Shown here piece by piece: positions 33,723 through 48,998 of a DNA stretch of 64,000 bases. The position numbers and the translations under genes were made by a program. This DNA is from Actinomycetota bacterium (GTDB lineage: Bacteria > Actinomycetota > Acidimicrobiia > Acidimicrobiales > Microtrichaceae): NCBI GenBank assembly GCA_016870275.1, contig VGBZ01000007.1, positions 1-64,000 of the forward strand, read 5' to 3'. A model generated the notes under the pieces. That model did not search any database. It had not been told where the DNA came from and saw only the letters and a program-made list of their open reading frames with translations. The first letter of the stretch is position 1; each line of letters begins with the position of its first letter.

Positions 33723-35831
33723 ATGGCGACCGGTGTCCCGACCAGCGCGTTGACGGAGGGTCCGTCAGGGGACGGGCCCGATCCGCTGCGGTCCGACTCC
33801 CGGCTGCGTGCGTCCGTGACGGTGGCGGCCGTGATGGTGTGGACCTTGTTCGCGGTGCTGGTGACGTACGGCCGGTTCGACGTGGTCCACCCGGAGACCT
33901 TCGGAAACTTCTACGACGCCCAGGCGCGGGCTCTGCTCGACGGGCGCCTGGCGGTCGACCCGAACCAGGTCGGGTTCGAGGGATTCCAGATGGACGGCGC
34001 CACCCACATCTACCAGGGCCTGGTCCCGACGATCGGCCGGCTGCCGGTGATGGTGGTGACCGACCGCCTCGACGGTCGTCTGACCTCGCTCTCGATGCTC
34101 GCAGCGATGGCCGTCGCCCTGGGTCACGTGGCCGTGCTCGTGCTGGTGGCGCGTCGACTCGTGCGCGGTCCGGCACCGGTCGGCCGCGGCGAGGTCGTGG
34201 CCCTGGGTGCGACGGTCGCCGCCGCCGGTGGGTCCTCGCTGCTGTTCCTGGGTTCGAAGGCCTGGGTGTACCACGAGGCCCTGCTGTGGGGCGTGGCGTT
34301 CGCGCTGGCCTCCGGAACCCATCTGCTGCGGTGGATCGAGCGAGGACGACTGGGTCGGGCGGACCTGGCGCCGCTCGTCTGGTCCGGGGGGTTCGCCGTG
34401 CTCGCCGTGCACAGCCGATTCTCCACGGGGCTCGGCGCACTCGTGTCGCTCGGCCTCGTGGGTCTGACGGTCGCTGCGGTGGCGCTCCGCCCGGCGCTGC
34501 AGGACCGGGTGGGCCGGATCGCCGGCCTGTCGGTCCCCGTCCGCCCCCTGCCGGTGCTGGCGGTGCTGGTGGCCACGGCCGTGGTGTCGCTGGGGAGCTA
34601 CGCCGCGGTGAACCAGGCCCGGTTCCAGACCCCGTTCGGCCTTCCGATCGAGCGTCAGGGGGTGGCGTCGTCGGACCCGGAGTTCCGGGCGGCGCTCGCC
34701 GCCAACGGCGGGTCGCTGTTCGGACTCCGCTACAGCCCGTCGGTGCTCGTCCAGCTGCTCCGTCCCGACGCGCTGCGCCTGCGCGGCGAGTTCCCGTACC
34801 TCGGCCTCCCCCTCGACCGACCGACCGTGGTGGGGGATGCACTGTTCGCCGAGCGGGACCGATCGACCAGCCTGCCGGTGGCGGCGCCGTGGGTCCTCGC
34901 AACGGCGGTCCTGGGACTGTGGGCGGCATTCGGTCCCCGACGCTGGTCGCACGACGGGGCTGCGGCTGCCGCCCGGCCGGTGGTCGTCGGTGCGGCCACG
35001 GCCGCCGGTGGCATCGTCGTCCTCGGCTACATCGCCAACCGCTACCAGGCCGACCTGCTCCCGGCGCTCGCCGTCGCATCGGCAGTGGGCGCGGCGGCGT
35101 TGGTCGGCCGCACTCGTCCCGGAGGTCGAGGACGCCGGGTGGTCGCTGGTCTGGCGGTCCTCGGCGCGCTCTGGGGAATCTGGGTCAACGCTGCGACCGC
35201 AGTCGAGTACCAGCGGGAGGTCGCCGCCGGGGCGTGGGACGGGTCGAGGTCGGCGTGGCTCTCGTTGCAGACCCGGCTCGGCCCTGCCCCCGACGTGTTG
35301 CGGGTCCCGGAGTCCGCACCGCTGCCACCCGCCGGTCCGTTGGGCCGTGTGGCGGTGGTGGGGGACTGCGACGCGGTCTACCGCTCGAACGGCGACATCT
35401 GGATCCTCATCGACGGTGGACCGGCCGCCGGGGCCTTCCGCCTGACGATCCGCTCCACCGGCGACCTGACCGGTCCCGTGCCGATCCTCGAGGGGGTCGG
35501 ACCGGAGGGGAGCAACCGGCTGGTGGTCGAGCCCGACGGACCACCCGGGCTGGCCCACCTCCAGATCGAGGTCGACGACGGGACCGAGGTGCGCAAGTCC
35601 TTCCCCGGCCCGGCGTTCCGGTGGACACCCGGGACGGAGCTCGAGCTCTCCACTGAACTCGACTGGCGGACCGACACCGTCGAGGTACGCGACAGCTCCG
35701 ACCGGCGGCTCCTCGGGGCGACGGTGGACCTGCTACCGACCGGGGACGTGACGCCGGCCGGCGGCCCAGAGGTCGAGGTGTCGGCCTCAGCCCGGGGCTT
35801 CGACCGCTGCGGTCGACTCGTCGGACCCTGA
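33723..35831 (+). CDS. Large polytopic membrane protein, putative GT-C glycosyltransferase
   Basis: A 702-residue protein with about ten membrane segments between residues 30 and 480 and a soluble C-terminal beta-rich domain (about 510-700), probably extracytoplasmic. The first loop reads NFYDAQARALLDGRLAV, followed by DGATHIYQG, a pattern shared by a family of uncharacterised GT-C-like proteins. The catalytic base would be the Asp of YDAQ. ATG 33723 follows AGGAGG at 33715-33720, an unusually short spacing of two bases. The last 45 bases overlap the end of the converging acyltransferase gene. Confidence 0.75.
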   Translation: MATGVPTSALTEGPSGDGPDPLRSDSRLRASVTVAAVMVWTLFAVLVTYGRFDVVHPETFGNFYDAQARALLDGRLAVDPNQVGFEGFQMDGATHIYQGLVPTIGRLPVMVVTDRLDGRLTSLSMLAAMAVALGHVAVLVLVARRLVRGPAPVGRGEVVALGATVAAAGGSSLLFLGSKAWVYHEALLWGVAFALASGTHLLRWIERGRLGRADLAPLVWSGGFAVLAVHSRFSTGLGALVSLGLVGLTVAAVALRPALQDRVGRIAGLSVPVRPLPVLAVLVATAVVSLGSYAAVNQARFQTPFGLPIERQGVASSDPEFRAALAANGGSLFGLRYSPSVLVQLLRPDALRLRGEFPYLGLPLDRPTVVGDALFAERDRSTSLPVAAPWVLATAVLGLWAAFGPRRWSHDGAAAAARPVVVGAATAAGGIVVLGYIANRYQADLLPALAVASAVGAAALVGRTRPGGRGRRVVAGLAVLGALWGIWVNAATAVEYQREVAAGAWDGSRSAWLSLQTRLGPAPDVLRVPESAPLPPAGPLGRVAVVGDCDAVYRSNGDIWILIDGGPAAGAFRLTIRSTGDLTGPVPILEGVGPEGSNRLVVEPDGPPGLAHLQIEVDDGTEVRKSFPGPAFRWTPGTELELSTELDWRTDTVEVRDSSDRRLLGATVDLLPTGDVTPAGGPEVEVSASARGFDRCGRLVGP

Positions 35832-37019
35832 GCCAGGCCCGGGGCCGTCCGCTCGTTGCTCCCGGCGGACTGTCCGCCGTCCCCAGCCCATGGCGGGACG
35901 CTCGACCAGGTACCAGCTCGCCGCCCCGGCGACGATCGAGAGGACCAGCGTCCACACGAGCATCCCGAGGAACGGTGCCCGTAGCGGCTCGTCACCGGTC
36001 CAGCGCAGGAACAGGTCCTGGAATGCCTCGTGCCAGAGGTAGATCCCGTACGAGATGAGTCCGAGCCAGATCGCGACCCGGTTGGCCAGCACCGTCCGGG
36101 CCAGTTGTCCACGTCCGGCGGCCAGGACGGCGGGCAGCACGACGAGGATCGCCACGAGCGAGTACATGCCGCGCATGGCGGTCGCCTCACGGGCGGAGAG
36201 GACCGGGCTGGGGGGCAGACCGAGTCGGGTCGCGGTGATCCAGAACAGCAGCGACGCGACCGACCAGCTGGCCAGCGTCGTCCAGCCCGTCCGCAGCCAT
36301 GCCGGCCGCACGCGACCGACCCGATCCCAGTGGGCGACAGCCACTGCGAGACCCATGCCGAGGGCGAACTCGTCGAGCCGGAACGGTAGCCACGTGTTGA
36401 CCTGCCCGAACCGGACAGCGCCCATCCCCGAGGCCAGCGCAGCGACCTTGAGCAGGTTGGAGCCGATCCACAGTGCGGCCACGCCGGCGACCTCGAACCG
36501 GAGCTGCCGGGCACCGTTGCGCCGACCCCGGGCGAGCAGCCACGCGTAGCACGGGAGGAACGCGTAGAAGGCGAGCTCAGTGGCGAGCGTCCACGACTGC
36601 TGGATCGGTCCGCCGACCACCTGGTCGCCGTCGTACACCTGGAGCAGCAGCGCGTGTGCCACGAAGCTGTGTGGCTGCTCGAAGGGCGGGGCGCGGAGGA
36701 CGAACGCCACGATCACCAGGGCGACCCAGTACGCCGGGAAGATCCGCAGCAGGCGCCGCCTGGCGTAGGACGACACGTCCTGGTGCGGGTCGCCGGCCAG
36801 ATGGCGGGTGACGAAGGGCCGGTAGAGCAGGAACCCCGAGAGGACGAAGAACACCGACACCCCGACGTCGGCACGCGCCAGGTACGGACCCAGGTCGAGG
36901 GAGCGGCCGTTGAAGCCGCTGAGGACGCCCACGTGGTTGACCAGCACGGCGAGCGCGGCGAGCGCACGGCACCCGTCCAACGCGGGGAGGCGCTGATCGA
37001 CGGCGGTCGGTGTGGGCAC
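35787..37019 (-). CDS. Acyltransferase family 3 membrane protein
   Basis: A 410-residue acyltransferase-3 protein with about ten membrane helices and no extra domain. It has the N-terminal LDGCRALAALAVLVNH with the catalytic His, VFFVLSGFLLYRPF, and RRLLRIFPAYW. Such proteins move acetyl or other acyl groups to sugars outside the membrane. The start is GTG 37019, 8 bases after a TAGACT box on the minus strand; the frame is open for another 980 codons upstream but that part is antisense shadow of the plus-strand genes. The next gene is divergent, 60 bases away. Confidence 0.9.
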   Translation of the reverse strand: MPTPTAVDQRLPALDGCRALAALAVLVNHVGVLSGFNGRSLDLGPYLARADVGVSVFFVLSGFLLYRPFVTRHLAGDPHQDVSSYARRRLLRIFPAYWVALVIVAFVLRAPPFEQPHSFVAHALLLQVYDGDQVVGGPIQQSWTLATELAFYAFLPCYAWLLARGRRNGARQLRFEVAGVAALWIGSNLLKVAALASGMGAVRFGQVNTWLPFRLDEFALGMGLAVAVAHWDRVGRVRPAWLRTGWTTLASWSVASLLFWITATRLGLPPSPVLSAREATAMRGMYSLVAILVVLPAVLAAGRGQLARTVLANRVAIWLGLISYGIYLWHEAFQDLFLRWTGDEPLRAPFLGMLVWTLVLSIVAGAASWYLVERPAMGWGRRTVRREQRADGPGPGSGSDESTAAVEAPG

Positions 37020-37027
37020 CGTGGGAC

Positions 37028-37072
37028 AGTCTACGAGGGGTACCGAATCCGATCGGTGACCGGCAGTACCAT
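37028..37072. promoter_or_regulatory. Divergent leaderless promoters of the acyltransferase and GT2-methyltransferase genes
   Basis: TAGACT on the minus strand (37033-37028) is 8 bases before GTG 37019. TACCAT on the plus strand (37067-37072) is 7 bases before GTG 37080. No ribosome sites are seen for either gene. Confidence 0.5.
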
Positions 37073-37079
37073 CTGCGGG

Positions 37080-38540
37080 GTGAGCGAGCCCCGGATCGGC
37101 GTCCTCGTCGTCGCCTACAACGCTGCCGGGACCCTGGCCGGGGTCCTCGACCGCATCCCTGAGGACTTCCGGTCTGCCATCACGACCGTCCTGATCGGCG
37201 ACGACGCCAGCTCCGACAGCACCCACCTGGTCGCAGTGGGTTACCAGCAGATCGCACCGGAGCTCCCGATCGTGGCGGTCCGCCACCCCGAGAACCTGGG
37301 GTACGGGGGCAACCAGAAGTGGGGGTACCGCTGGGCGGTCGAGCACGACCTGGACGTCGTGGTGCTCCTGCACGGCGACGGCCAGTACGCGCCCGAGATG
37401 CTCCCCGACATGGTCGCCCCGATCATCTCGGGCGAGGCCGACGCCGTGTTCGGCTCCCGCATGCTCGACGACGGCGCCGCCCGGCGGGGCGGGATGCCGC
37501 TGTACAAGTACGTCGGCAACCGGATTCTCACCACCGTCCAGAACGCCGCCGCCGGAGCCGAGCTCTCGGAGTGGCACTCGGGCTACCGGGCGTACTCCGT
37601 CCGGGCGCTCGCGGACGTCCCGTTCGAGTCCAACAGCGACGACTTCGACTTCGACACCGAGATCATCATCCAGATGATCGAGGCAGGGAAGCGGATCGTG
37701 GAGATACCGATTCCCACCTACTACGGCGACGAGATCTGCCACGTCAACGGCCTGGCCTACGCACGCGACGTCACGGTGGACACCCTGCGTTACCGTGCGC
37801 ACAAGATGGGGTTCGGGACCGGGGAACTGGCGTTCGCCAGCACCGGGTACGAACACAAGGAGGACGTCGACTCCTCCCACGTACGGTTGGTCGAGTGGGC
37901 GTCGACGATCCCTCCTGGCCGCGTGCTCGACCTGGGGTGCGGCGACGGTGTCCTCGCTGAGCAACTGCGTGCCGTCGGGCACGAGGTGACCGGTGTGGAC
38001 CTGCAGCCGTGGGGCGACGTCAAGGAACGCGTCGACCGGTTCGTCCAGGCCGACCTGGACCAGGGGTTGCCGACCAGCCTCGATGGCCCCTTCGATCTGG
38101 TGCTGGCCGCTGACGTCCTCGAGCACGTTCGCCGTCCGGCTGAGCTGCTCGCGGACCTGATCCGCGTGGTCCCGCCGACGGGCCACGTGGTGGTGAGCGT
38201 CCCCAACTTCGGCCACTGGTACCCCAGGCTGCGGGTGCTGCTCGGACGGTTCGACTACGACCGTCGGGGCATCCTGGACCAGGACCACGTCCGGTTCTTC
38301 ACGCGTCGCAGCGTGGAACGGCTGCTGCAGGGCGCCGGATTCCGGATCGAGCGCCGCGACACCACGGGCCTCCCGGTGGAGGTGGTCGAGCGGGGCGGGA
38401 CCTCCGGCTCCGTCGGCGGTGCCCGGCGACTCGTCGCAGCAGTGGACCGGGTGCTGCGGTCCGTCCGTCCCGAGGTGTTCGCCTACCAGTTCCTCTACGA
38501 CCTCCGGCCGGCTCCGCAGCGAGCGCGGAGGTCTCAGTGA
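37080..38540 (+). CDS. Bifunctional GT2 glycosyltransferase - SAM methyltransferase
   Basis: A 486-residue fusion. Residues 1 to about 255 are a DPM1-like GT2 domain with VLVVAYN, IGDDASSDST, the acidic LLHGDGQYAP metal site and SEWHSGYRAYS. Residues about 275-430 are a class I methyltransferase with LDLGCGDG at 283-290, VTGVDLQ and AADVLEHVRRP. A hydrophobic/basic tail follows. This suggests that one protein adds and methylates, or couples lipid-phosphate sugar synthesis with methylation. GTG 37080 follows TACCAT by 7 bases. It heads a unit of four genes with 0-4 base overlaps. Confidence 0.87.
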   Translation: MSEPRIGVLVVAYNAAGTLAGVLDRIPEDFRSAITTVLIGDDASSDSTHLVAVGYQQIAPELPIVAVRHPENLGYGGNQKWGYRWAVEHDLDVVVLLHGDGQYAPEMLPDMVAPIISGEADAVFGSRMLDDGAARRGGMPLYKYVGNRILTTVQNAAAGAELSEWHSGYRAYSVRALADVPFESNSDDFDFDTEIIIQMIEAGKRIVEIPIPTYYGDEICHVNGLAYARDVTVDTLRYRAHKMGFGTGELAFASTGYEHKEDVDSSHVRLVEWASTIPPGRVLDLGCGDGVLAEQLRAVGHEVTGVDLQPWGDVKERVDRFVQADLDQGLPTSLDGPFDLVLAADVLEHVRRPAELLADLIRVVPPTGHVVVSVPNFGHWYPRLRVLLGRFDYDRRGILDQDHVRFFTRRSVERLLQGAGFRIERRDTTGLPVEVVERGGTSGSVGGARRLVAAVDRVLRSVRPEVFAYQFLYDLRPAPQRARRSQ

Positions 38541-39929
38541 GTGGCCCCCCAGTCGGAGACACTCGGAGCTGAGTCGGCCCGGCTCGATCCGCCGACGGTG
38601 ACGGCCGTGTCTCCGTCGGTCCGGGTCCCGGACCGTCGTGACCTGCTCCTGGTGGCTGCGGTGGCCGTGGGCCTCCGGCTGGTCGCAGCCGTCCTGCTCG
38701 TCGAGTCCCCCCGTGGACTGGCCGATCCGTTCCTGTACCAGGCGTTCGGACAGGCCATCGCTGCCGGGTACGGCTACATCTCGTTGCTCGGCCAGCCGAC
38801 GGCCTACTACCCGCCCGGCTACCCCTTCACGCTGGCCGTGCTGCAGTGGCCCCTGGATCGGCTCGGCGTCCCCGAGGCCCTGCCCGCAGTCGCCGCGGTC
38901 GGCCAGGCGCTCCTGGGTGGCGTCACGGCGGCGGCGGTCGCCGTGGGCGGAGGTCGTCTCGCTGCGTCGCTGCGCACCGGCCCCGCACCGCGCGCCGTGG
39001 GTCTGGCTGCCGGGTTGCTGGTCGCAGCGTGGCCCAACCTGGTCGTGTACTCGACGGTGCTGCTGTCCGAGACGCTGTTCGTCGCCCTGGTGTCCGTCGC
39101 CCTGGCCGCGGTGCTCACCGTGGGACGCGACGTCCGGTGGGGTGCCCCGTTGGCGGTGGCGGCCGTGGTGACCGGTCTCGCCACGACGGTGCGCCCGCAG
39201 GCTCTGCTGTACGTCCCGGCGGTGGCCGCCGCGTGGGCGGTCGGCCGGGTCCCGTGGCGCAGGATCGTGCTCGGCACGGCGGTGCTGCTCGCTGGGGCGG
39301 CCGTGGTGGTGGCGCCCTGGACACTGCGCAACGTCGTGGTGATGGGTGCACCTGTCGCGGTGTCGACCAACCTCGGCGACAACCTCTGCATCGGCTTCCA
39401 GGACGGTGCCAGCGGCGGCTTCTCGATGAACGCGGCCTGTGGGACGGGCACGACCTACGTCGACGGACCGGCGGTGGAGGTGGCCCGAAACGACGAACTC
39501 CAGCGCCGCGCCGTGGCCTGGGTCGGAGACCACCTTGGTGAACTCCCGGGTCTGTCGGTACGGAAGCTCTGGATCACATTCGGCAGCGACTGGGACGCCG
39601 TGAGGGCCGCCGAGTCCTACGGCGCCGCGCCCCAGTTGTCGGACGGCGTGCGCCCGGTGGTGCACGCAGCGTTCGACTTGACCTGGTGGTTGTTGGTCGC
39701 CGTAGCCGGGGTCGGGCTCGTCGTGGTGGGACGGTCCGAGGGGCGCCGCGACGTCGCCGGACCTGTCGTGATCCTCACCGGGTTGGCCGGAGCGGTGGTG
39801 CCGGTGCTGTTCTTCGGTGACCCGCGATTCAAGATGGGTGTTGCGCCGTCGTTGATCCTGCTCGCCGGCGTGGGCGTGGTGGCGGTGCTCGGACGGCTGC
39901 ACCCCCGGCAGCGAGGGTCGACGACATGA
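38541..39929 (+). CDS. GT-C membrane glycosyltransferase (GT39-like)
   Basis: A 462-residue protein with about ten membrane helices. The first loop has LADPFLYQAFGQAIAAG and YYPPGYPF, resembling polyprenyl-phosphate-mannose-type transferases. The predicted catalytic Asp is in the LADP segment, though the second acidic residue common in GT39 is absent. A soluble loop of about 90 residues (NLGDNLCIGFQDG to about residue 370) lies before the last helices. GTG 38541 follows the previous stop directly, and the stop overlaps the acyltransferase ATG by 4 bases. Confidence 0.78.
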   Translation: MAPQSETLGAESARLDPPTVTAVSPSVRVPDRRDLLLVAAVAVGLRLVAAVLLVESPRGLADPFLYQAFGQAIAAGYGYISLLGQPTAYYPPGYPFTLAVLQWPLDRLGVPEALPAVAAVGQALLGGVTAAAVAVGGGRLAASLRTGPAPRAVGLAAGLLVAAWPNLVVYSTVLLSETLFVALVSVALAAVLTVGRDVRWGAPLAVAAVVTGLATTVRPQALLYVPAVAAAWAVGRVPWRRIVLGTAVLLAGAAVVVAPWTLRNVVVMGAPVAVSTNLGDNLCIGFQDGASGGFSMNAACGTGTTYVDGPAVEVARNDELQRRAVAWVGDHLGELPGLSVRKLWITFGSDWDAVRAAESYGAAPQLSDGVRPVVHAAFDLTWWLLVAVAGVGLVVVGRSEGRRDVAGPVVILTGLAGAVVPVLFFGDPRFKMGVAPSLILLAGVGVVAVLGRLHPRQRGSTT

Positions 39930-41974
39930 GGTGGGACGTCGTCGACCGGACGACCCCGGCACCACCACCGCAGGCGGCCGTCGCGAGCCGGCGTCGGCCG
40001 TCGCTCGACGGGCTCCGTTGCCTGGCGGTGCTGTCGGTGGTCGTCTACCACGCCGAGGACGGTTACCTGCCGGGGGGATTCGTCGGCGTCGACGTGTTCT
40101 TCGCGCTCTCCGGGTACCTGATCACTGCGCTCCTGCTCGCTGAGCGCGAGCGTGACGGACGCGTGTCCCTCGGAAGCTTCTGGGTGCGCCGCATCCGGAG
40201 GCTCTGGCCGCTCGCGTGGTTGACGCTGGCGGTGGTGGCGGTCGTCGGCCTGCTGGGGGTCTGGGGTGCGGACCAGGAGCGCCTCCTGCCCGCGGAGACG
40301 CTCGCAGCCCTGGCGAACGTCTCCAACTGGTGGCAGATGGCGAACGGCGGGTACGTGACCGTCGGCGTCGCACCGTCGCCACCGTCGCCACTGCGGCACT
40401 TCTGGTCGCTGGCGGTCGAGGAACAGTTCTACCTGGTCTGGCCGCTCGTGCTCGTCGGCCTGCTGGGCTGGGGTGCCCGGACCGCCCGGACCGGCAGCTC
40501 GTCGCCGGACCGAGGCGTGCTGTTCGCAGCGGTCGGTGTCGGCGTGCTGTTCGTGGCCTCGGCCCTCTCCGCCGCCGTGGCCTCGCCGGAGGTGGCCTAC
40601 CTCTCGACGCACACCCGCGCCGTGGCGTTGCTCGCCGGCGCCGCTCTGGCGTTGGCGTTGCGCCGTTCGCCGCTGTCCGGCCCGTCCTCGCAGGGCGTGC
40701 GTCGCCTGGTCTCGGCGGCCGGTGCGGTCGGCGCCGTCGTCCTGGTGGTCGTCGCCCTCGTCGCCACTCCATCGTGGCCGGTGCTCCACCGGGGAGGTTT
40801 CTCCTTGGTGGCCGTCGCCGCGACGGCGGTGGTGGCGGTCGCGCTGGTCCCGGGTCCCGCCCGTGGTGTTCTCTCGCTCGCCCCGCTCGTGTGGATCGGC
40901 CGCCGGAGCTACGCCATCTACCTGTTCCACTGGCCGCTCGTCGTGGCGATGGGACCTGAGGCTCCGGGCTGGGTCGTGATCGCACTCGTCCTGCCCGTCT
41001 CGGTGGCCCTGGCGGCGCTGGCCCACCAGTTGGTGGAGCTGCCGGTCCAACTCGGCCGACCGACGCCCCGGGCCCTCGCCGCAACGGGGTCTCTGGTGCT
41101 CGCCGTGATCGGAGTCGCGCTCTGGACGGGACGGCCCGACGGTCCCACGGCCGGGCAGCAGGTCGCGGCCAGTCTCGAGCGTGTCGCCGACCCCGTGGTG
41201 GCTCCGTCCCCAGCGGGTGTGACGACCACGACGGTGCCGTGCGTGCCGACCGCTGGTCCAGTGCGGTTGTTCCTGGGGAGCACGGACCGCTTCGATGCCT
41301 CGACGGTCGGGGAGGTGGCGGACCCGACCGCCGGTTGCGCAGGCCAGACCCGGGTGCTGGTGTTCGGTGACTCGCTCGGTCGTGGCGCGGCCAACGGTCT
41401 GGTGTCGCTGGGCGACCCGAGCGTCCTGCTCTGGGACCGCACCATTCTCGGGTGCTCGTTCGGGACCACCTCCGCCACCGACGAGCCCTGCCCGGACTGG
41501 CGCCAGGCCTGGCCTGTCTCGGTGCTCGGAGTCCAGCCGGACGTCGTCCTGGTGTTCTCGCGGATCCTCGGGGACCTGCCGGGTGGCAGCGATGCTCCGT
41601 TCCTGTCGCCGGAGGCCGACGCCGAGCGGGTCGCTGCCTTCACGGAGGCAGCGCAGCGTCTCGGCGCGACCGGGGCCCGGGTCCTGCTGGTGACCGCCGC
41701 GGTCCCGGGTGAGCCGAACGGCCGCTTCTACTGCGACGGCCGTGGTCGCAACAGCCCGTGTGACCCCGAGTGGGTGGCGGCATGGAACCGATCGCTCGTC
41801 GCCGGTGCGGCCGCCGGTGGCGCAGGCGTCGTCGACGCTGCCTCGTGGACCGCCGCGCGGTCCGCCACCGACCGGATCGATCGTCCCGACGGCCTGCACT
41901 ACTCCGGAGGCGCACTGTTCGAGCACGCCACCTGGTTGCTCGCCGAGATCCGTCGGACTGCGGGGCGCAGGTGA
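39926..41974 (+). CDS. Acyltransferase 3 - SGNH fusion (OatA-like O-acyltransferase)
   Basis: A 682-residue two-domain protein. The N-terminal acyltransferase-3 domain (about 25-400) has LDGLRCLAVLSVVVYHAE with the His, DVFFALSGYLITALLL and FWSLAVEEQFYLVWP. The C-terminal SGNH hydrolase-like domain (about 470-680) has Ser483 in VFGDSLG and the Asp655/His658 pair in PDGLHYS, so its catalytic residues are intact. As in OatA, the membrane domain brings an acyl group outside and the SGNH domain transfers it to a glycan. ATGA overlaps the previous stop; GTGA at its end overlaps the next gene. Confidence 0.92.
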   Translation: MRWDVVDRTTPAPPPQAAVASRRRPSLDGLRCLAVLSVVVYHAEDGYLPGGFVGVDVFFALSGYLITALLLAERERDGRVSLGSFWVRRIRRLWPLAWLTLAVVAVVGLLGVWGADQERLLPAETLAALANVSNWWQMANGGYVTVGVAPSPPSPLRHFWSLAVEEQFYLVWPLVLVGLLGWGARTARTGSSSPDRGVLFAAVGVGVLFVASALSAAVASPEVAYLSTHTRAVALLAGAALALALRRSPLSGPSSQGVRRLVSAAGAVGAVVLVVVALVATPSWPVLHRGGFSLVAVAATAVVAVALVPGPARGVLSLAPLVWIGRRSYAIYLFHWPLVVAMGPEAPGWVVIALVLPVSVALAALAHQLVELPVQLGRPTPRALAATGSLVLAVIGVALWTGRPDGPTAGQQVAASLERVADPVVAPSPAGVTTTTVPCVPTAGPVRLFLGSTDRFDASTVGEVADPTAGCAGQTRVLVFGDSLGRGAANGLVSLGDPSVLLWDRTILGCSFGTTSATDEPCPDWRQAWPVSVLGVQPDVVLVFSRILGDLPGGSDAPFLSPEADAERVAAFTEAAQRLGATGARVLLVTAAVPGEPNGRFYCDGRGRNSPCDPEWVAAWNRSLVAGAAAGGAGVVDAASWTAARSATDRIDRPDGLHYSGGALFEHATWLLAEIRRTAGRR

Positions 41975-43632
41975 CGGAGGACGCGGCACGGACGCCGTGG
42001 GACCGCCGTGACGCGCTCGGAATGGCGGTCGTGCTCGGAGCCCTGCTGCTGCCGGTGGTGGGGTTGATGCGGTACCAGGGACCACCCATGGAGGAGGGGT
42101 TCATGCTCGTGTTCCCCGAGCAGATCCTCCAGGGTCGGCTCCCGCACCGTGACTTCCTCCACCTCTACGGTCCCGGGTCGGTCTACGTGCTGGCAGCGAT
42201 CTACGGAGTCCTGGGTGTGGACATCACCGTGGAACGACTCGTCGGCCTCCTCCAGCACGCGGTCGTCGCAGTGGCCCTCTACGCGCTCCTGCGGCCGTGG
42301 GGCCGCCGGGTCGCCACACCGGCGTGCGTCGTCGCCGTGTTGATCCTCCTGCTGCCCATGGGGCTCGTCGCCATGGCGTGGAACGGGTCGCTGGCGTTCG
42401 CCACCGCTGGTCTGGCGGTGGGGGTGGCCGGCGCCCGTCGGGCCGGCGACGACCACGGCGGTACTCGCCTGCTGGCCCTCGCCGGGGTGTGCGCGGGCGC
42501 GGCGCTGCTGTACCGCCCCGACCTGGTGCTGGCCGTGGTCGTCGGGTTCGGGCTGCTCCTCTGGCCACTGCCGTGGTCACGCCGTCGGCCGTTCCTCGTG
42601 GCCGGCGGCCTGACCCTCCTGTTGTACGTGCCCCACGTCCTCCTGAGCGGCCTCGGCGCGTCGTTCCGGGGCATGTTCCTCGAGCCGGTGTTCGAGCTCA
42701 GGCCGGGCCGGGCGCTCCCGGTGCCGCCGTCGTGGGGCGAGATCGACGGGTTCCTGCAGAAGGCCGGGGCGTTGCGAACGACCGGCTGGCCGTTCCCGAT
42801 ACCTGCGCTCTCCCAGCAGATCGTCCTGTGGTTCTGGCTGGTGCCGGCGTCGATCCTGCTCGTGGTGGTCGTGGCCGTGCTCCTGTGGCGCCGGGAGCGG
42901 GGCACGCCACGGGCGGTGGCCTTCGTGCCGAGCGCAGGGTTCTCGGCGTTGCTGGTGACCCAGGCGCTGCAGCGACCCGACACCACGCACCTGGCGTGGG
43001 TGACCTGCATCTCATTCCCCTTGGCCATGGCGGCGATCGCCTACCTGGTCGAGCGACGGGTGGGGGAGTCGAGGGCGTGGTTGCCGCCGACCGTGGCCGC
43101 AGGGGTGATGGCCCTGGTCCTCCTGGTGGTCGTGCCCTTCTACCCGGTCCGCACCTACCTGGACGCCGTCGGGCAGACGTTCGGACGCAACCAGTTCGGC
43201 TCGCCGATCACCAACGGCGAGCGAACCTTCTGGTTCGGGAGCCCAGAGGGTGCGGCCGACGCCCAGACAGTGGTCGACGCGCTCGCCGCACGGGCACAGC
43301 CGGGGGACCGCCTGATCGCCGGACCCGGCGACCTCTCGAGGACCAACTACAGCGACGCGTTCTTCTACCACCTGTTCCCCGACCTGGTCCCGGGCACCCG
43401 GTACATCGAGATGGACCCCGGGCTGGCCGACGCCGAGGGCTCAGGGCTGGCCGAGGAGGTCGCAGCCGCTGACTGGCTCGTGCTCACCGACGCCGCCGAC
43501 GCATGGACGGAACCCAACACCTCGGCGGGGTCCCGCAGCGACGCCCCCAACCGGGTCGTCCGGGAGCAGTTCTGCGAGGTGGTGGTCACCCCCACGGTCC
43601 GCCTCATGGAGCGGTGCCGACCAGCGACCTGA
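41971..43632 (+). CDS. Polytopic membrane protein, putative GT-C glycosyltransferase
   Basis: A 553-residue protein with about ten membrane helices. The first loop reads GPPMEEGFMLVFPEQILQG with acidic residues, then HRDFLHLYGPGSV, a pattern of GT-C-like membrane proteins. A soluble C-terminal domain of about 130 residues (after the helix near residue 390) should lie outside the membrane. I do not recognise a closer family. GTG 41971 overlaps the acyltransferase stop by 4 bases. It is the last gene of the unit that begins at 37080; a gap of 60 bases with its own promoter follows. Confidence 0.75.
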   Translation: MTEDAARTPWDRRDALGMAVVLGALLLPVVGLMRYQGPPMEEGFMLVFPEQILQGRLPHRDFLHLYGPGSVYVLAAIYGVLGVDITVERLVGLLQHAVVAVALYALLRPWGRRVATPACVVAVLILLLPMGLVAMAWNGSLAFATAGLAVGVAGARRAGDDHGGTRLLALAGVCAGAALLYRPDLVLAVVVGFGLLLWPLPWSRRRPFLVAGGLTLLLYVPHVLLSGLGASFRGMFLEPVFELRPGRALPVPPSWGEIDGFLQKAGALRTTGWPFPIPALSQQIVLWFWLVPASILLVVVVAVLLWRRERGTPRAVAFVPSAGFSALLVTQALQRPDTTHLAWVTCISFPLAMAAIAYLVERRVGESRAWLPPTVAAGVMALVLLVVVPFYPVRTYLDAVGQTFGRNQFGSPITNGERTFWFGSPEGAADAQTVVDALAARAQPGDRLIAGPGDLSRTNYSDAFFYHLFPDLVPGTRYIEMDPGLADAEGSGLAEEVAAADWLVLTDAADAWTEPNTSAGSRSDAPNRVVREQFCEVVVTPTVRLMERCRPAT

Positions 43633-43692: not shown

Positions 43693-44520
43693 GTGCGGTC
43701 GGTCGTCGTCGTGCCCACGTTCTATGAGGCGGAGAACATCGTCGACCTCCTGCGGGCCGTCCGGCGTGCAGCTCCCGACACCGACGTGCTGGTCGTCGAC
43801 GACGACAGCCCCGACGGCACGGGGCGACTGGCCGGAGAGGTCGGGGCCGAACTCGGCGGCGTCGAGGTCCTCCACCGGACCCGCAAGGAGGGTCTGGGTG
43901 CGGCGTACCGTCACGGGTTCCGGGTGGCCCTGGACGGTGGCTACGACGTCGTCGCGCAGATGGACGCCGACCTCTCGCACGACCCGGAGGTGCTGCCCCG
44001 GTTGCTCGACGCGCTCCGCGACGGGGCCGAGGTCGCCGTGGGGTCCCGGTACGTGCCCGGTGGCTCCATCCTGAACTGGACGTGGTTCCGCCGGGGGCTG
44101 TCCCGGTGGGGGAACGGCTACGCCCGGTGGATGCTCCGCCTCAGCGTGCGTGACGCAACCAGCGCCTTCCGGGCGTACCGGGCCGAGGTGCTGGAGCAGA
44201 TCGACATCGACGGCACCCGGGCCAACGGCTACCTGTTCCAGATCGAGACGGCGTACCGGTTGTCCGCCGCCGGTGCCCGGGTTCGTGAGTTGCCGATCAC
44301 CTTCGTCGACCGTGTGGCCGGTCAGTCGAAGATGGCCGTCGTCCGTACCATGGTGGAGACCGAACTCCGGGTGACGTGGTGGGGCCTGTCGCTCCGGGCG
44401 CCTCGGATCAGCTCGGCGTTCCGACGGACCTCGGGCGGGCGCTACCTGGCGGGTCGGGTGGCACCCATGCCGTTGCCGCCAGCCCGGGCCGGCGACGCCG
44501 TCCGGGATCAGGGGTCCTGA
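43693..44520 (+). CDS. Polyprenol-phosphate mannose synthase-like GT2
   Basis: A 275-residue DPM1/Ppm1-type transferase, with VVVPTFYEAENI, VVDDDSPDGTG, metal-binding QMDADLSHDPE, GSRYVPGGSI and the C-terminal RVAGQSKM segment. The match to polyprenol-phosphate mannose synthases is close along the whole length. It would make the lipid-phosphate sugar donor used by the GT-C enzymes of this island outside the membrane. It has no membrane domain of its own. About 45 residues at the C-terminus are Pro/Arg-rich. The next gene starts 6 bases after its stop. Confidence 0.9.
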   Translation: MRSVVVVPTFYEAENIVDLLRAVRRAAPDTDVLVVDDDSPDGTGRLAGEVGAELGGVEVLHRTRKEGLGAAYRHGFRVALDGGYDVVAQMDADLSHDPEVLPRLLDALRDGAEVAVGSRYVPGGSILNWTWFRRGLSRWGNGYARWMLRLSVRDATSAFRAYRAEVLEQIDIDGTRANGYLFQIETAYRLSAAGARVRELPITFVDRVAGQSKMAVVRTMVETELRVTWWGLSLRAPRISSAFRRTSGGRYLAGRVAPMPLPPARAGDAVRDQGS

Positions 44521-44526
44521 TCCGTC

Positions 44527-47352
44527 GTGGCGGCGCCGTCGTCGACCGTGACCCCGCCGGTCGGACCGGGCCACCGTCGGCTGGTCCGGCGACGCTCCGG
44601 TTCGGCCGAGCTCGGCTACGAGCCGGCGCTCGACGGGCTGAGGGCGCTCGCCGTCCTGGCCGTCTGCCTCTACCACGCCCGCTTCGAATGGATTCCCGGC
44701 GGGTTCCTGGGCGTGTCGGCGTTCTTCACGCTCTCCGGGTTCCTCATCACGACGCTGCTGTTGTCCGAGTGGCGACGCTCGGGTGGGGTGGACCTGCGCC
44801 GGTTCACCTCCCGGCGGTTCCGTCGGCTGCTGCCGGCAGCGTGGACGACCCTCCTGCTGATCCTGGTGATGGGCGCGCTCGGCGTGTGGGACGCCACCCA
44901 GCTCCGCTCGCTGCGTGGCGACGTGCCGGCGGCTCTGCTCGAGGTGAGCAACTGGTGGTTCATCGTGCAGGACCGCTCCTATGGGGCGCTCTTCGACGCG
45001 CCGTCGCCAACGGAGCACTTCTGGTCGCTGGCGATCGAGCAGCAGTTCTACCTGCTCTACCCGCTGGTGATCGTCGGCGTGGTCGCACTCGCCCGTCGTC
45101 GGCGTGGCCCGGGCCCCGTCACCACCCTGGCCAGGGCCCTGGTGGGGCTCACCGTCCTCTCGGCCGTGCTCAACTGGCGCGCCGCCGGCGTGTCGGTGCC
45201 CCGCGCCTACTTCGGGACCGACACCCGGCTGGCCGAGCTCACGATCGGAGGACTGCTGGCGACGGTGGGGGTCCGTCGGCTCCGACCCACCTCGGCGACG
45301 ACCCGGCTGTGGCTGGCGGCTCTGGCGGTCCCCGCGATCGTGGGGACGCTGGTGCTCTGGCACACGGCCTCGGTCACGAGCGGCTGGATGTACCCCGCCG
45401 GTCTGCTCACCACGAGCGCCTGCACGGTCGGTCTGATCGTCGCAGCGATGCAGCCGGGACCGTGGCGCAGCCTGCTCGGCGGCCGACCGCTGGTCGCCCT
45501 CGGCCGGATCAGCTACGGCGTGTACCTGCTGCACTGGCCGGTGTTCCTGTGGCTCACCCCGGTGCGGACCGGGCTCGCGCCCTGGCCGCTGTTCGGACTG
45601 CGCATGGCGGTCACCATCGCCGCAGCGGTGGTGCTCCAACGGCTGGTCGAGCGGCCGGTGCGCGAGGGTGCCGGCGCAGCGAGGCGCTGGGCGCCACGGG
45701 TCGCCCTGCCGGCCGCTGCTGCGCTGGTGGTCCTGACGCTGGTGCTCACCGCGGCTGCGCCGGCACCTGCGGGCGGGACGCTCGAGGAGGTGGCGTCCAA
45801 CGCGCCACCAGCAGCGCCCGCACCGCTTCGGACCACCGTGATCGGCGACGCGTCGGCCGCGGCGTGGGGTCCGGCCTGGACCGGCACGAGCGAGGACCCG
45901 CTCGCCGTCAGGGCCGTGGCCGACCCGGGGTGCGGTCTGGTGGCAGTCGGGTTCGTCGCCATGCCCGACGGCACCGCTGAGCGGAACTCCGACCGCTGCG
46001 GGTCGCTCCAGGAACAGTGGCTGGCAGAGGTCACGGTGAACCGTCCGGAGCTGGTCGTGGTGAGCGGGGGGATGCGTGACGTGGCCGACCGTCGGACCGA
46101 ACCCGACCAGCCGTGGCGTTCACTCGGCGACCCGGCGCTCGACGAGCTGCTCGCCCTCGAGCTGCGGGACTTCCTGGGCGAACTCACCGACACGGGCGTA
46201 CCTGTCGCCGTGGCGACCCTGCCCAGGATGGACAACCGGTCCGCGCCCCCGCCGCCACCGCCGGCCCGTGGTCTCCCGCAGGGCGAGATAGAGCGGGCGT
46301 TGTTCGTCCTGTCGGGGAGCGAGGCCGTGGAGGGCGGACCCGGACCGGGGTTCCCCGAGAACGATCCGGGCCGCATCGACAGGTGGAACCAGATCCTCCG
46401 GGAGGCCGCCGGTGCCACTGGCCTGCCGGTGCTCGACGTGGCGGCCGTGACGAACGCCTGGCCGGGCGGCCCCTTCGATCCGGCCCGGCGTGCTCCTGAC
46501 GGCGTCGGCTACACCGAGCTCGGGCAGCGTGAGCTCGCCGCATCGCTCGCCCCCGCCATGCGGGACGTCCGTCCGCCGGTGCCTGCGCCGGACCAGCTCG
46601 GCGCGGTCTCGGCCGTGCTGCCCCTCCCAGCCGCGCCCCAGGCGGTGCCACGGCGGACGGTGCCGCCCGGCTCGCCCGTGCCCGTCCTGGTGGTCGGGGA
46701 CTCCGTTGCGGTCGACCTAGGGGTCGGGCTCCGCGACAGCCGGGTACCGAGTGCGCAGCTCAAGGTCTCCATCGGGGCACAGCTCGGCTGCCCGGTTGCC
46801 CGGGGTGGCGAGTACCGGTTCATGCGCGACATCGTCCGGTTCGCGGACCGGTGCGACTGGGCCACGCTGTTTCCCGGGCTGCTCGACTCCTACGATCCAG
46901 CAGTGGTCGTGCTGGGCACGGGCATCTGGGACGTCGTCGATCGTCGTCTGCCCGGCGACGACCGGATCCGTTCGATCGGCGAGCCCGTCTCGGACCGGTA
47001 CTTCCTCACCGAGCTCCTCTCGGCCATCGACCTGCTGGGCTCGCGCGGCGCCACGGTGGCCCTGGTCACCTACCCGTTGATCGAGTCGGGCCGTGGACAG
47101 GGCTTCACCGGCCTGCCCGAGTCGGATCCGGCGCGGATGGAGCGGCTGAACGAGTTGATCAGGGAGGCGGCCTCCCTGCGGCCCGGGGTGGCCACGGTCG
47201 TGGACTTCGGCGGCTGGATGGCCACCCAGCCCGGTGGGGGGCTCGATCCGTCCATCCGCAGCGACGGGGTACACCTCAGCGAACCGTTCATCGCCGTCAC
47301 CGGCGACTGGCTCGCACCGCAGGTCGACGTGCTCGCCCGTCCCGCCGGCTGA
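44527..47352 (+). CDS. Acyltransferase 3 fused to two tandem SGNH-like domains, the first degenerate
   Basis: A 941-residue protein. Residues about 30-400 form an acyltransferase-3 membrane domain (LDGLRALAVLAVCLYH, VSAFFTLSGFLITTLLL, HFWSLAIEQQFYLLYP). An SGNH-like domain (about 435-690) follows in which the nucleophile position after GD is Ala442 (GDASAA) and the His position of the DxxH block is Gly661 (DGVGY). A second SGNH domain (about 720-941) is intact: Ser726 in VVGDSVA and Asp913/His916 in DGVHLS. The dead copy may bind glycan or position the substrate. GTG 44527 follows the GT2 stop by 6 bases. Confidence 0.88.
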   Translation: MAAPSSTVTPPVGPGHRRLVRRRSGSAELGYEPALDGLRALAVLAVCLYHARFEWIPGGFLGVSAFFTLSGFLITTLLLSEWRRSGGVDLRRFTSRRFRRLLPAAWTTLLLILVMGALGVWDATQLRSLRGDVPAALLEVSNWWFIVQDRSYGALFDAPSPTEHFWSLAIEQQFYLLYPLVIVGVVALARRRRGPGPVTTLARALVGLTVLSAVLNWRAAGVSVPRAYFGTDTRLAELTIGGLLATVGVRRLRPTSATTRLWLAALAVPAIVGTLVLWHTASVTSGWMYPAGLLTTSACTVGLIVAAMQPGPWRSLLGGRPLVALGRISYGVYLLHWPVFLWLTPVRTGLAPWPLFGLRMAVTIAAAVVLQRLVERPVREGAGAARRWAPRVALPAAAALVVLTLVLTAAAPAPAGGTLEEVASNAPPAAPAPLRTTVIGDASAAAWGPAWTGTSEDPLAVRAVADPGCGLVAVGFVAMPDGTAERNSDRCGSLQEQWLAEVTVNRPELVVVSGGMRDVADRRTEPDQPWRSLGDPALDELLALELRDFLGELTDTGVPVAVATLPRMDNRSAPPPPPPARGLPQGEIERALFVLSGSEAVEGGPGPGFPENDPGRIDRWNQILREAAGATGLPVLDVAAVTNAWPGGPFDPARRAPDGVGYTELGQRELAASLAPAMRDVRPPVPAPDQLGAVSAVLPLPAAPQAVPRRTVPPGSPVPVLVVGDSVAVDLGVGLRDSRVPSAQLKVSIGAQLGCPVARGGEYRFMRDIVRFADRCDWATLFPGLLDSYDPAVVVLGTGIWDVVDRRLPGDDRIRSIGEPVSDRYFLTELLSAIDLLGSRGATVALVTYPLIESGRGQGFTGLPESDPARMERLNELIREAASLRPGVATVVDFGGWMATQPGGGLDPSIRSDGVHLSEPFIAVTGDWLAPQVDVLARPAG

Positions 47353-47388: not shown

Positions 47389-48942
47389 TCAGGAGGACGG
47401 GACGACCGGTGCGTCGCGTCCGGTCCCGTCCCCGTCGCTGCCGATCCAGTCCGAGGCGACCGACGGGGTGTCGGCGTCGACCTCGTGGTAGTCGGCTTCG
47501 ACGTTGACGGACCACACGTCATGGTGTGAGCCGGTCACGATGTTTTCGACGCTCAACATGGCGGTGAGCATGGAGTGGTCCTGATTGTTGTACTTGTGCA
47601 TGCCGTTGCGGCCGACCGGGTGTGCGTTCGGCGCCGCTTCCGCCAACCAGTCGCGTAGCACGGCCACCTTTGCCTGGTAGCCCTCGTCGTAGACGGGGTA
47701 GGCCCGGGGCATCCGCACGACGTACCCCGACTCGACGGCACTGGCCCGGGCGAGACCGAGTAACTCGAGTTCCCGCTTCGCAAGCTCGACGAGGTCCTCG
47801 TCGGCCTTGGTCCACATGCCGTCGCCCTCGAAGACGAAGTACTCGAGGCCCAGACACGTACGGCCGTTCTTCACGAGGTACGGCGACCAGGAACCGAAGT
47901 TCTGGATGCGCCCGACGGCGACCTCGGAGGAGTGGATGTAGATCCAGTTGTCGGGAAAGCCGTCGACCTCGGGGACGACGAGCGCAACGGTCAGGAAGTC
48001 GCGGAACCCGAGGCCGGAGGCCGCTTCGAGCACCTCGGCGGGTGCCGGTGGGTCGAGTGCTTCGACGAAGTACGGCAGTGGCATGGTCGACACCACGTGA
48101 TCGGCTGGGTAGGTCGTGGTCCGACCGGCGCTGTCGACGGCGACGACGGCAGTGACGCCGGCTTCGTTGCGCTCGATGCGCTGGGCTCGTTGGTCGAACA
48201 CCACGGCGCTACCTGTGGCCTCGACGAGTTCGGCGCAGCGCTCCCACATCATGCCGGGTCCGTACTTCGGGTACTGGAAGTCCTCGATGAGGCTGGTGAC
48301 CTGCTTGGTCCGGTCGGCTCGGCGACCGAGGAGCCGGGAACGGATGGGCTCCCACACGGCGTGCCAGAGCGACATGCCCTTGATGCGCTGCGCTCCGAAG
48401 TCAGCGGAGAGCTGGGCCGGGTCGACACCCCACACCTTGATGTTGTAGGTCCGGAAGAAGTGCTCGTAGAGCCGGCGGCCGTAGTCGGCGACCACGTAAC
48501 CCTCGAGCGTGCTCTGGTCCTTGGGCGGACGGACCCTGGCCCACAGGTAGGACAACACGCAGCGCACTGCCTCGAGGAATCCGAGGTTGCGCAACGCGTT
48601 GATCGGCTTGATCGGGTAGTCGTAGTACTTGCCCTGGTAGTAGATCCGGCTCATCCGTGGGCGCAGGAGGAACTCGTCGTCGTCAAGGATCTCGTGCCAG
48701 AGGGCCTCGACCGGCTGCACCTTGGTGAAGAAGCGGTGGCCGCCGATGTCGAAGCGCCAACCGTCACGTTCGGCGGTCTGCGAGATCCCGCCGACGACGT
48801 CGGTGGCCTCGAGGATGGTGCTGGTGATGTTCGCCTTGGAGAGCTGGTAGGCGGCGGTGAGGCCGGCCGGTCCGGCGCCGATCACGACGACATTGGGTGG
48901 ACCGATCGGATCGGGCTGCTCGGGGGAGTCTGATTCATTCAT
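47389..48942 (-). CDS. FAD/NAD(P)-dependent oxidoreductase, amine-oxidase/UGM-like superfamily
   Basis: A 517-residue flavoprotein with the N-terminal dinucleotide motif VVIGAGPAGLTAAYQL, the GG doublet VVGGISQ and FDIGGHRFF. It has the general layout of the protoporphyrinogen oxidase / amine oxidase / UDP-galactopyranose mutase superfamily, and homologues recur in polysaccharide loci, but the substrate is unknown. It is not a canonical UDP-galactopyranose mutase by motif. I use ATG 48942; a TTG at 48945 directly before it is ignored. It converges on the acyltransferase gene across 36 bases and marks the right end of the glycan island. Confidence 0.82.
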   Translation of the reverse strand: MNESDSPEQPDPIGPPNVVVIGAGPAGLTAAYQLSKANITSTILEATDVVGGISQTAERDGWRFDIGGHRFFTKVQPVEALWHEILDDDEFLLRPRMSRIYYQGKYYDYPIKPINALRNLGFLEAVRCVLSYLWARVRPPKDQSTLEGYVVADYGRRLYEHFFRTYNIKVWGVDPAQLSADFGAQRIKGMSLWHAVWEPIRSRLLGRRADRTKQVTSLIEDFQYPKYGPGMMWERCAELVEATGSAVVFDQRAQRIERNEAGVTAVVAVDSAGRTTTYPADHVVSTMPLPYFVEALDPPAPAEVLEAASGLGFRDFLTVALVVPEVDGFPDNWIYIHSSEVAVGRIQNFGSWSPYLVKNGRTCLGLEYFVFEGDGMWTKADEDLVELAKRELELLGLARASAVESGYVVRMPRAYPVYDEGYQAKVAVLRDWLAEAAPNAHPVGRNGMHKYNNQDHSMLTAMLSVENIVTGSHHDVWSVNVEADYHEVDADTPSVASDWIGSDGDGTGRDAPVVPSS

Positions 48943-48998
48943 CAAGATCGCCCGATGAAACTACCCCGTACCCCGCAGCGCAACCGGTACTGCACCGG

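Follow-up and report, generated by a model that had tools for sequence, protein, structure and literature searches.

A catalytically dead SGNH-like domain under purifying selection precedes an intact one in an acyltransferase-3 protein of Actinomycetota

Membrane proteins that join an acyltransferase-3 (AT3) domain to an SGNH domain are modelled, in the available text of three papers, as presenting an acyl group at the outer face of the membrane through AT3 and making the final transfer with SGNH (PMC7448272, PMC9833829, PMC9558356). The accessible parts of four papers describe one SGNH domain per AT3 protein (PMC9558356, PMC7448272, PMC9833829, PMC12423673), as an initial annotation of the locus studied here, made by a model from the letters alone, had stated for OatA-type proteins; alanine racemase fusions and the SGNH-TmAT protein CASD1 also figure in what is accessible of the AT3 literature, and glycan recognition and acyl handover by AT3–SGNH enzymes are called an open question there. 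The window analysed here, a 64,000-nt stretch of an Actinomycetota bacterium of the family Microtrichaceae (contig VGBZ01000007.1, positions 1 to 64,000), encodes at 44527–47352 an AT3 protein with two SGNH domains in tandem, the first of which (D1) has lost the catalytic serine and histidine that the second (D2) keeps. What does a dead SGNH domain do in such a protein? Our preferred reading, to which we give about an even chance, is that the protein is an OatA/OafB-type O-acyltransferase of surface glycans whose single SGNH domain has become a pair, with D2 performing the transfer and D1 serving as a non-catalytic partner that engages the acceptor or positions D2. We rate the dead–live arrangement as apparently new relative to descriptions of AT3–SGNH proteins (OatA/OafB): searches of an open-licence library turned up no title or abstract mentioning two SGNH domains in one AT3 protein, and those found there on inactive SGNH domains concern Oskar or germ cells.

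Architecture of the tandem protein

The frame is open from the GTG at 44527 through the stop codon at 47350–47352, and the following features were placed on it.

44527–47352, + strand: whole gene, AT3–pseudo-SGNH (D1)–SGNH (D2), 941 amino acids (aa), putative GTG start
44614–45750, + strand: AT3 membrane domain and modelled eleventh helix, residues 30–408 (PF01757, conserved residues, model, HGSNAT match)
45769–45810, + strand: low-confidence linker, residues 415–428 (predicted local distance difference test, pLDDT, below 50)
45826–46572, + strand: D1, pseudo-SGNH domain, residues 434–682 (Pfam, D1–D2 alignment, model, fold matches)
45844–45855, + strand: D1 block I, GDAS 440–443, Ala442 in place of the nucleophile Ser (alignment)
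45931–45999, + strand: cysteines C469 and C491 of D1, conserved in all 23 tandem proteins
46498–46509, + strand: D1 block V, DGVG 658–661, Gly661 in place of His (alignment)
46573–46677, + strand: inter-domain stretch, residues 683–717, with a modelled helix at 690–697
46678–47337, + strand: D2, catalytic SGNH domain, residues 718–937 (PF19040, PatB match)
46696–46707, + strand: D2 block I, GDSV 724–727, nucleophile Ser726 (alignment)
47263–47274, + strand: D2 block V, DGVH 913–916, Asp913 and His916 (alignment)

Pfam finds AT3 (PF01757) at residues 34–370 of the whole protein (E 3.6e-31; 108.9 bits, cut-off 31), GDSL_2 (PF13472) across two stretches (E 9e-13) and the AT3-fused SGNH family PF19040, with its best stretch at 714–899 (E 1.3e-07; 32 bits, cut-off 27). 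Residues 26–379 match the fold of human HGSNAT (Z 16.1). The hallmarks of AT3 given in the available text of PMC7448272 (R/K-X10-H in transmembrane helix 1, FFxxSG, RxxR and a Glu after transmembrane helix 10) are all present, as in OafA and OafB: R39-X10-H50, F66-F67-x-x-S70-G71 and R97-x-x-R100 occur in all 22 tandem proteins that cover them, and E375 in all 23, these being proteins of the same build from 23 genomes, the protein of the window included. A full-length model (22 sequences in the alignment) reached a mean pLDDT of 84.9, with residues 1–28 below 50, and predicts a helix at 352–380 followed by a last helix at 385–408 ahead of D1; because its predicted template modelling score (pTM) of 0.56 is too low, the mutual placement of the domains cannot be read from it. 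Membership of the SucT family (NCBIfam NF058601) was rejected, the match scoring 83.4 bits against an equivalog cut-off of 1275 and covering residues 30–405 only. A scan for promoters and terminators found nothing.

D1 has lost its active site and D2 has kept it

The active-site blocks read G440-D441-A442 and D658-G659-V660-G661 in D1, and G724-D725-S726 and D913-G914-V915-H916 in D2, so that the substitutions proposed in the initial annotation (Ser to Ala442, His to Gly661) are exact to the residue number. Across the 23 tandem proteins the block I serine is absent from every D1 (position 442 is Glu in 9, Ala in 4, Gly in 4, Gln in 4, His in 1 and Arg in 1), and the block V histidine is found once, in L032 (position 661 is Gly in 16, Ala in 3, and His, Thr, Pro or Glu in one each). 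The equivalents of Ser726, Asp913 and His916, which the same annotation had picked out as retained, are present in all 23 D2 domains. Single-SGNH AT3 relatives have the serine in 75 of 75 and the histidine in 73 of 75, counting those of 81 whose match covers nearly the whole profile. By its catalytic residues, D2 would be the only candidate for the final transfer step. Block III is less telling: the GxND motif is absent from D1 (GGMRD, 514–518), but its loss is uninformative alone because the live D2 lacks it too (GTGIWD), a feature shared with OafA and OafB as far as the available text on these goes. The block III tryptophan, W801, is invariant in D2; in D1 the equivalent position, 517, carries Arg 20 times, Trp twice and His once.

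Could D1 still be an enzyme through other residues, for instance by relaying the acyl group via another nucleophile? Asp441 is kept in 23 of 23 D1 domains and Asp658 in 19 of 23, and in this protein Ser443 adjoins the lost nucleophile. Yet residues 430–700 contain no histidine, which rules out the alternative Ser and His that the initial annotation had wanted looked for; positions 442 and 443 vary (443 is Ser, Thr, Leu, Phe or Gly among the 23); and the invariant residues of D1, its two cysteines aside, include no Ser, Thr, Cys or His. We consider continued catalysis by D1 very improbable.

Two single-SGNH AT3 proteins, L179 and L162, lack the block V histidine (EGRD and EGGD). Their SGNH domains are possibly dead, with no live partner in the same chain, and the loss of catalytic residues is therefore not wholly confined to pairs.

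D1 is predicted to adopt an SGNH fold

Modelled alone (269 residues, 23 sequences), D1 gave a mean pLDDT of 89.7 and a pTM of 0.86, and the model is that of an SGNH α/β/α fold. In a Foldseek search of the PDB the top matches of this model were GDSL/SGNH enzymes, with 8gr2 at E 4.6e-07 and probability 1.00. VIA-align superposed it on 8gr2 (Z 17.3 over 190 residues), PatB (8tlb, Z 17.2), Staphylococcus aureus OatA (6vjp, Z 14.1) and the periplasmic part of Salmonella OafB (6se1, Z 13.5); D2 aligned with Campylobacter jejuni PatB at Z 18.1. A pairwise blastp of D1 and D2, run without composition statistics, aligned 163 aa at 32% identity (E 3e-17). D1 alone matches GDSL_2 at E 1.6e-07 and 32.4 bits, half a bit below the Pfam cut-off of 32.9, and 20 of the 23 D1 domains have a match to the family at E ≤0.01. 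A single-sequence search of the PDB with D1–D2 returned nothing reliable (best E 0.27). Because profile searches gave only partial GDSL matches (best E 2.4e-4 for D1, over the last 70 positions, and 0.022 for D2), the case for the fold rests mainly on the model and on Pfam. Pfam, the D1–D2 alignment and the fold model together bear out the AT3 domain with two tandem SGNH domains that had been proposed for this gene, and both the structure prediction and the family profile search, suggested beforehand as checks, came out on the side of an SGNH fold for D1. The cysteines C469 and C491 probably form a disulfide.

D1 is under purifying selection

The ratio of non-synonymous to synonymous substitution rates (dN/dS; NG86, four same-genus pairs, three of which have members in common) is 0.142–0.242 for D1, 0.144–0.239 for AT3 and 0.069–0.103 for D2. 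D1 is thus under purifying selection, like the AT3 domain. Since it is also conserved across most of the sampled family, D1 is likely to have some function, which lends indirect support to the same claim in the initial annotation. That D1 is a functionless, decaying relic, or that the pair is an artefact of assembly or frame, would fit the missing catalytic residues and the erosion of first copies in other AT3 proteins described below. We find this scarcely credible: the dN/dS of D1 is far below 1, and the same open-frame build recurs in 23 genomes of one family, which rules out an assembly artefact, and in 20 named records, partly from the same genomes.

The conservation within D1 is uneven. 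Around the former active-site blocks (I, II, III and V) D1 scores 0.677, against 0.569 outside them, and 36 of 5,000 random window sets came as high as the former; this leans towards a retained binding cleft.

Distribution in the family, class and phylum

In 33 genomes of the family of the window, a search with the D1 profile gave 24 strong matches (E <1e-50), namely the 23 tandem proteins analysed and one in G019, where the gene is split across two contigs. Fragments at contig ends, with D2 only in G016 and AT3 only in G030 and G031, may be the same gene. The remaining six of the 33 genomes (G007, G008, G012, G022, G023 and G026) have no strong D1 match, and two of them are less than 85% complete. 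A scan of 395 genomes of the class gave 10 matches at E ≤1e-25: nine of the window's family, and one in G368 that falls in the live SGNH domain of the AT3 protein L165, which has an eroded first stretch. A further scan, of named genomes, gave 20 loci, in records titled Actinomycetota, of which 6 are Microthrixaceae, 1 is Acidimicrobiaceae and 1 is strain IMCC26207. In the window's own genome, no matched AT3 frame other than 44527–47352 has two SGNH domains; a single one is seen in two frames, and by profile none in the rest. The 23 tandem proteins in the family, together with at least seven further pairs in the order (see below), bear on the question of phylogenetic spread that the initial annotation had raised.

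Among the PF19040 matches from 396 genomes of the phylum (frames of at least 791 aa), none outside the order proved to be an AT3–SGNH–SGNH protein, the genome scans having scored 3–9 candidates per genome (6 for the class, up to 6 for the phylum) and having tested absence elsewhere only weakly. The long PF19040 frames at 15 loci outside the order (L220–L222, L224–L230 and L234–L238) are upstream frame extensions, with 280 to 352 residues past AT3.

Two side observations come from these scans. At L223:1260-4457 (G696, same phylum), an AT3–SGNH protein carries a C-terminal extension of about 300 residues with a GELDVMES motif, which has a weak SKN1/KRE6 match in Pfam only (7e-4, below cut-off); we take the motif to resemble that of family 16 glycoside hydrolases, and the protein is possibly a transferase–glycosidase fusion. 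The record at L053 is titled Bifidobacterium breve (metagenome-assembled genome MiH-22jul19-91), yet the locus matches Microthrixaceae records, and the title is probably wrong.

SGNH pairs recur in related AT3 proteins

The comparison covered 137 distinct frames with AT3 complete to its end, chosen as relatives or for their length and thus not a random sample. At least 400 residues follow AT3 in 39 of the 137, comprising the 23 tandem proteins and 16 others. Two SGNH matches occur in seven of these 16, from a scan of the order in which listed matches with an open frame of at least about 784 aa were examined, so that shorter or unlisted tandem proteins are uncounted. In what follows, live and dead mean that Ser and His are present or absent as read from the sequence. 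The first domain is live and the second dead in L150 (GDST/DGIH, then GDGT/DGVG), in two genes of L158 (second domain without Ser and DxxH) and in L181 (second domain GDAP); L168 has a dead first domain (GDRN/NGVK) and a live second one. These five genes were found in two further families in the order. The two others come from one genome of the window's family, G012: L190 (515–3670, − strand) has a live first domain and a second with GDTN and DGVH, that is, Ser replaced by Thr, and L191 (1–2979, − strand) appears live in both copies, the second of which is cut off at the end of the stretch examined. Pfam finds SGNH-type families (E ≤0.01) in six of the seven; for the remaining one, the second gene of L158, it reports nothing beyond AT3. 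Coverage of the SGNH profile is incomplete in the second domains of L158 and L181. At least 30 AT3 proteins with two SGNH domains are thus at hand, 24 dead–live, 4 live–dead, 1 live–Thr and 1 live–live. An inactive copy between the membrane domain and the active one, as the initial annotation had it, therefore holds for the protein of the window but is not a fixed feature of such pairs, the dead copy being last in at least four AT3 proteins.

In the other 9 of the 16 long frames, AT3 and a single live SGNH domain are separated by 150 to 266 residues. Six of the nine intervening stretches match the SGNH profile at an independent E value (i-E) of 1.7e-6 or better, which 0 of 300 shuffles equalled; those of L189 (i-E 0.012, 0 of 300 shuffles), L166 (0.05, 4 of 300) and L161 (2.7, 123 of 300) are not claimed as eroded SGNH domains. 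L231 and L232, from another family of the order, have about 230–240 residues between AT3 and a live SGNH domain, with a faint SGNH match in the stretch of L231 only.

A tree was built by a quick method from 87 domains (14 of the 23 family pairs, seven other pairs and the 45 best-scoring of the 75 singles), reduced to 73 rows by dropping 14 (near copies, the L020 pair, in which the first domain had been poorly trimmed, and, for reasons of size, part of the singles). The D1 domains of the family form one clade (Shimodaira–Hasegawa-like approximate likelihood-ratio test, SH-aLRT, 99) and the D2 domains another (100), with 13 proteins each, and the pair was therefore probably inherited as a unit. 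No supported sister relation between the two clades was found in this tree. The two domains of L191, which share 51% identity, are sisters (100) and perhaps represent an early stage of the process. Those of L190 group with L181_C (99), a grouping that we do not trust because L181_C is a long branch, as are L168_N and L158b_C. We read the tree as indicating that the pair arose at least three times (the family, L190 and L191); the inactivations would have been separate, given that the place of the dead copy, first or last, differs between proteins. A broader and more tentative reading extends this to the whole order: live and dead copies would have been paired repeatedly, with several origins, the dead copy, whether first or last, being made acceptor-binding each time and the pairs acting as in-chain dimers of transferase and pseudo-transferase that would hold a long glycan at two points and acylate it at only one. 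We regard this as possible, and hold it with less conviction than the reading preferred for the window's protein.

Possible role of D1

In the mechanism that we prefer, AT3 would carry an acyl group from cytoplasmic acyl-CoA across the membrane, and Ser726 of D2 would accept it and hand it to a hydroxyl of the acceptor glycan, both steps as known for the family. The acceptor would be the product of the neighbouring glycosyltransferases. Membrane-proximal D1, having lost nucleophile and general base, would retain the SGNH fold, the cysteine pair and the frame of the old cleft, and would hold the acceptor chain or position D2, as the SGNH extension does in OafB. There is precedent for acceptor choice in that extension, without which OafB becomes promiscuous in vitro (PMC7448272, available text). 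Knowledge of the family underlies the acyl relay from AT3 to D2; binding or positioning of the acceptor by D1 is a proposal of ours, for which the OafB extension offers the closest analogy.

Several observations weigh against this. The live D2 shows a similar block contrast (0.838 against 0.699), which the fold could therefore explain; D1 is more variable than D2, with a mean column identity of 45% as opposed to 67%; and the 12 fully invariant residues of D1 could all be structural, in which case a pure spacer would look alike. L032 (1327–2943) alone of the 23 keeps DGVH in D1, together with a block I of GDAL, and represents either a half-dead state or a regained histidine. The two apparently live copies of L191 and the untrustworthy domain arrangement in the full-length model count on the same side, as does the finding that in relatives the first copy can erode to about 200 residues, hardly recognizable, which fits loose constraint better.

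Part of this bears on the proposal that D1 is a folded spacer, for which any stable fold would serve and whose only task would be to bring D2 away from the membrane, nearer to a remote wall acceptor. D1 evolves faster than D2, elsewhere in the order AT3 proteins have an eroded copy at that position, and the preceding linker is of low confidence and probably flexible. Set against that, conservation is higher in the old cleft blocks than elsewhere in D1, the dN/dS of D1 is as low as that of AT3, and a dead copy at the C terminus, as in L150, the two L158 genes and L181, cannot space anything from the membrane. A spacer role is possible for the dead-first proteins and less so for the live-first ones; for D1 we consider it unlikely, if far from negligible. 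The reversed domain order in these relatives amounts to a built-in control.

Alternatively, D1 might be an allosteric or assembly partner that packs on D2 or AT3 and controls acyl handover without touching the acceptor. The pair seems to be co-inherited, the available text on OafB proposes a mobile SGNH domain with limited but important contacts to AT3 (PMC9833829), and the SGNH extension of OafB is described as packing on and stabilizing its SGNH domain (PMC7448272, available text). The full-length model, however, fixes neither the D1–D2 nor the D1–AT3 arrangement, and we think a role of this kind rather improbable. Proteins in which a doubled SGNH domain has one dead but selected copy separate a non-catalytic role from catalysis inside one chain. 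They also call for caution when AT3 proteins are annotated: a match to SGNH may fall on a dead domain.

Comparison with known systems

The protein resembles OatA in that AT3 is followed by an SGNH domain with Ser-Asp-His, in the model by way of a putative eleventh helix and a linker, but OatA has one SGNH domain where this protein has two, the first dead, and the acceptor of OatA is peptidoglycan, that of this protein only a putative glycan. In OafB the accessory part is a short structured extension, in contrast to the whole pseudo-SGNH domain found here. PatB is among the closest solved SGNH structures for both D1 and D2; unlike the tandem protein, it is a separate one-SGNH protein acting with the MBOAT protein PatA, according to the text available. 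AlgJ and AlgX likewise provide two SGNH units per acylation system, AlgX being thought to act on the polymer (PMC9487903, available text), but they are separate, circularly permuted proteins that both have a Ser-His-Asp triad. The OSK domain of Oskar shares with D1 an SGNH fold without catalytic residues and, unlike D1, has no acyltransferase partner. Oskar is a eukaryotic RNA-binding protein.

Genomic context

The genes around the tandem gene are as follows, with counts from 30 related loci, several genomes being counted twice, from two sources.

35790–36983, − strand: AT3-only gene
36999–38537: glycosyltransferase–methyltransferase fusion
38541–39929 and 41971–43632: two proteins with no Pfam match that passes the cut-off
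39926–41974, + strand: single AT3–SGNH gene, its SGNH match below cut-off
43693–44520, + strand: family 2 glycosyltransferase, upstream neighbour, in 26 of 30 related loci
47389–48945, − strand: flavin adenine dinucleotide (FAD) oxidoreductase, convergent neighbour (NCBIfam PRK07208.1-4 over cut-off), in 30 of 30 related loci

The upstream glycosyltransferase is like a polyprenyl-phosphate sugar synthase and scores far below any equivalog cut-off. The gene content of the locus suggests assembly and decoration of an envelope glycan. An oxidoreductase of the PRK07208 group is convergent to the tandem gene at all 30 loci. Three distinct AT3 genes (AT3 only, AT3–SGNH and AT3–pseudo-SGNH–SGNH) lie inside 12 kb of this glycan-type locus.

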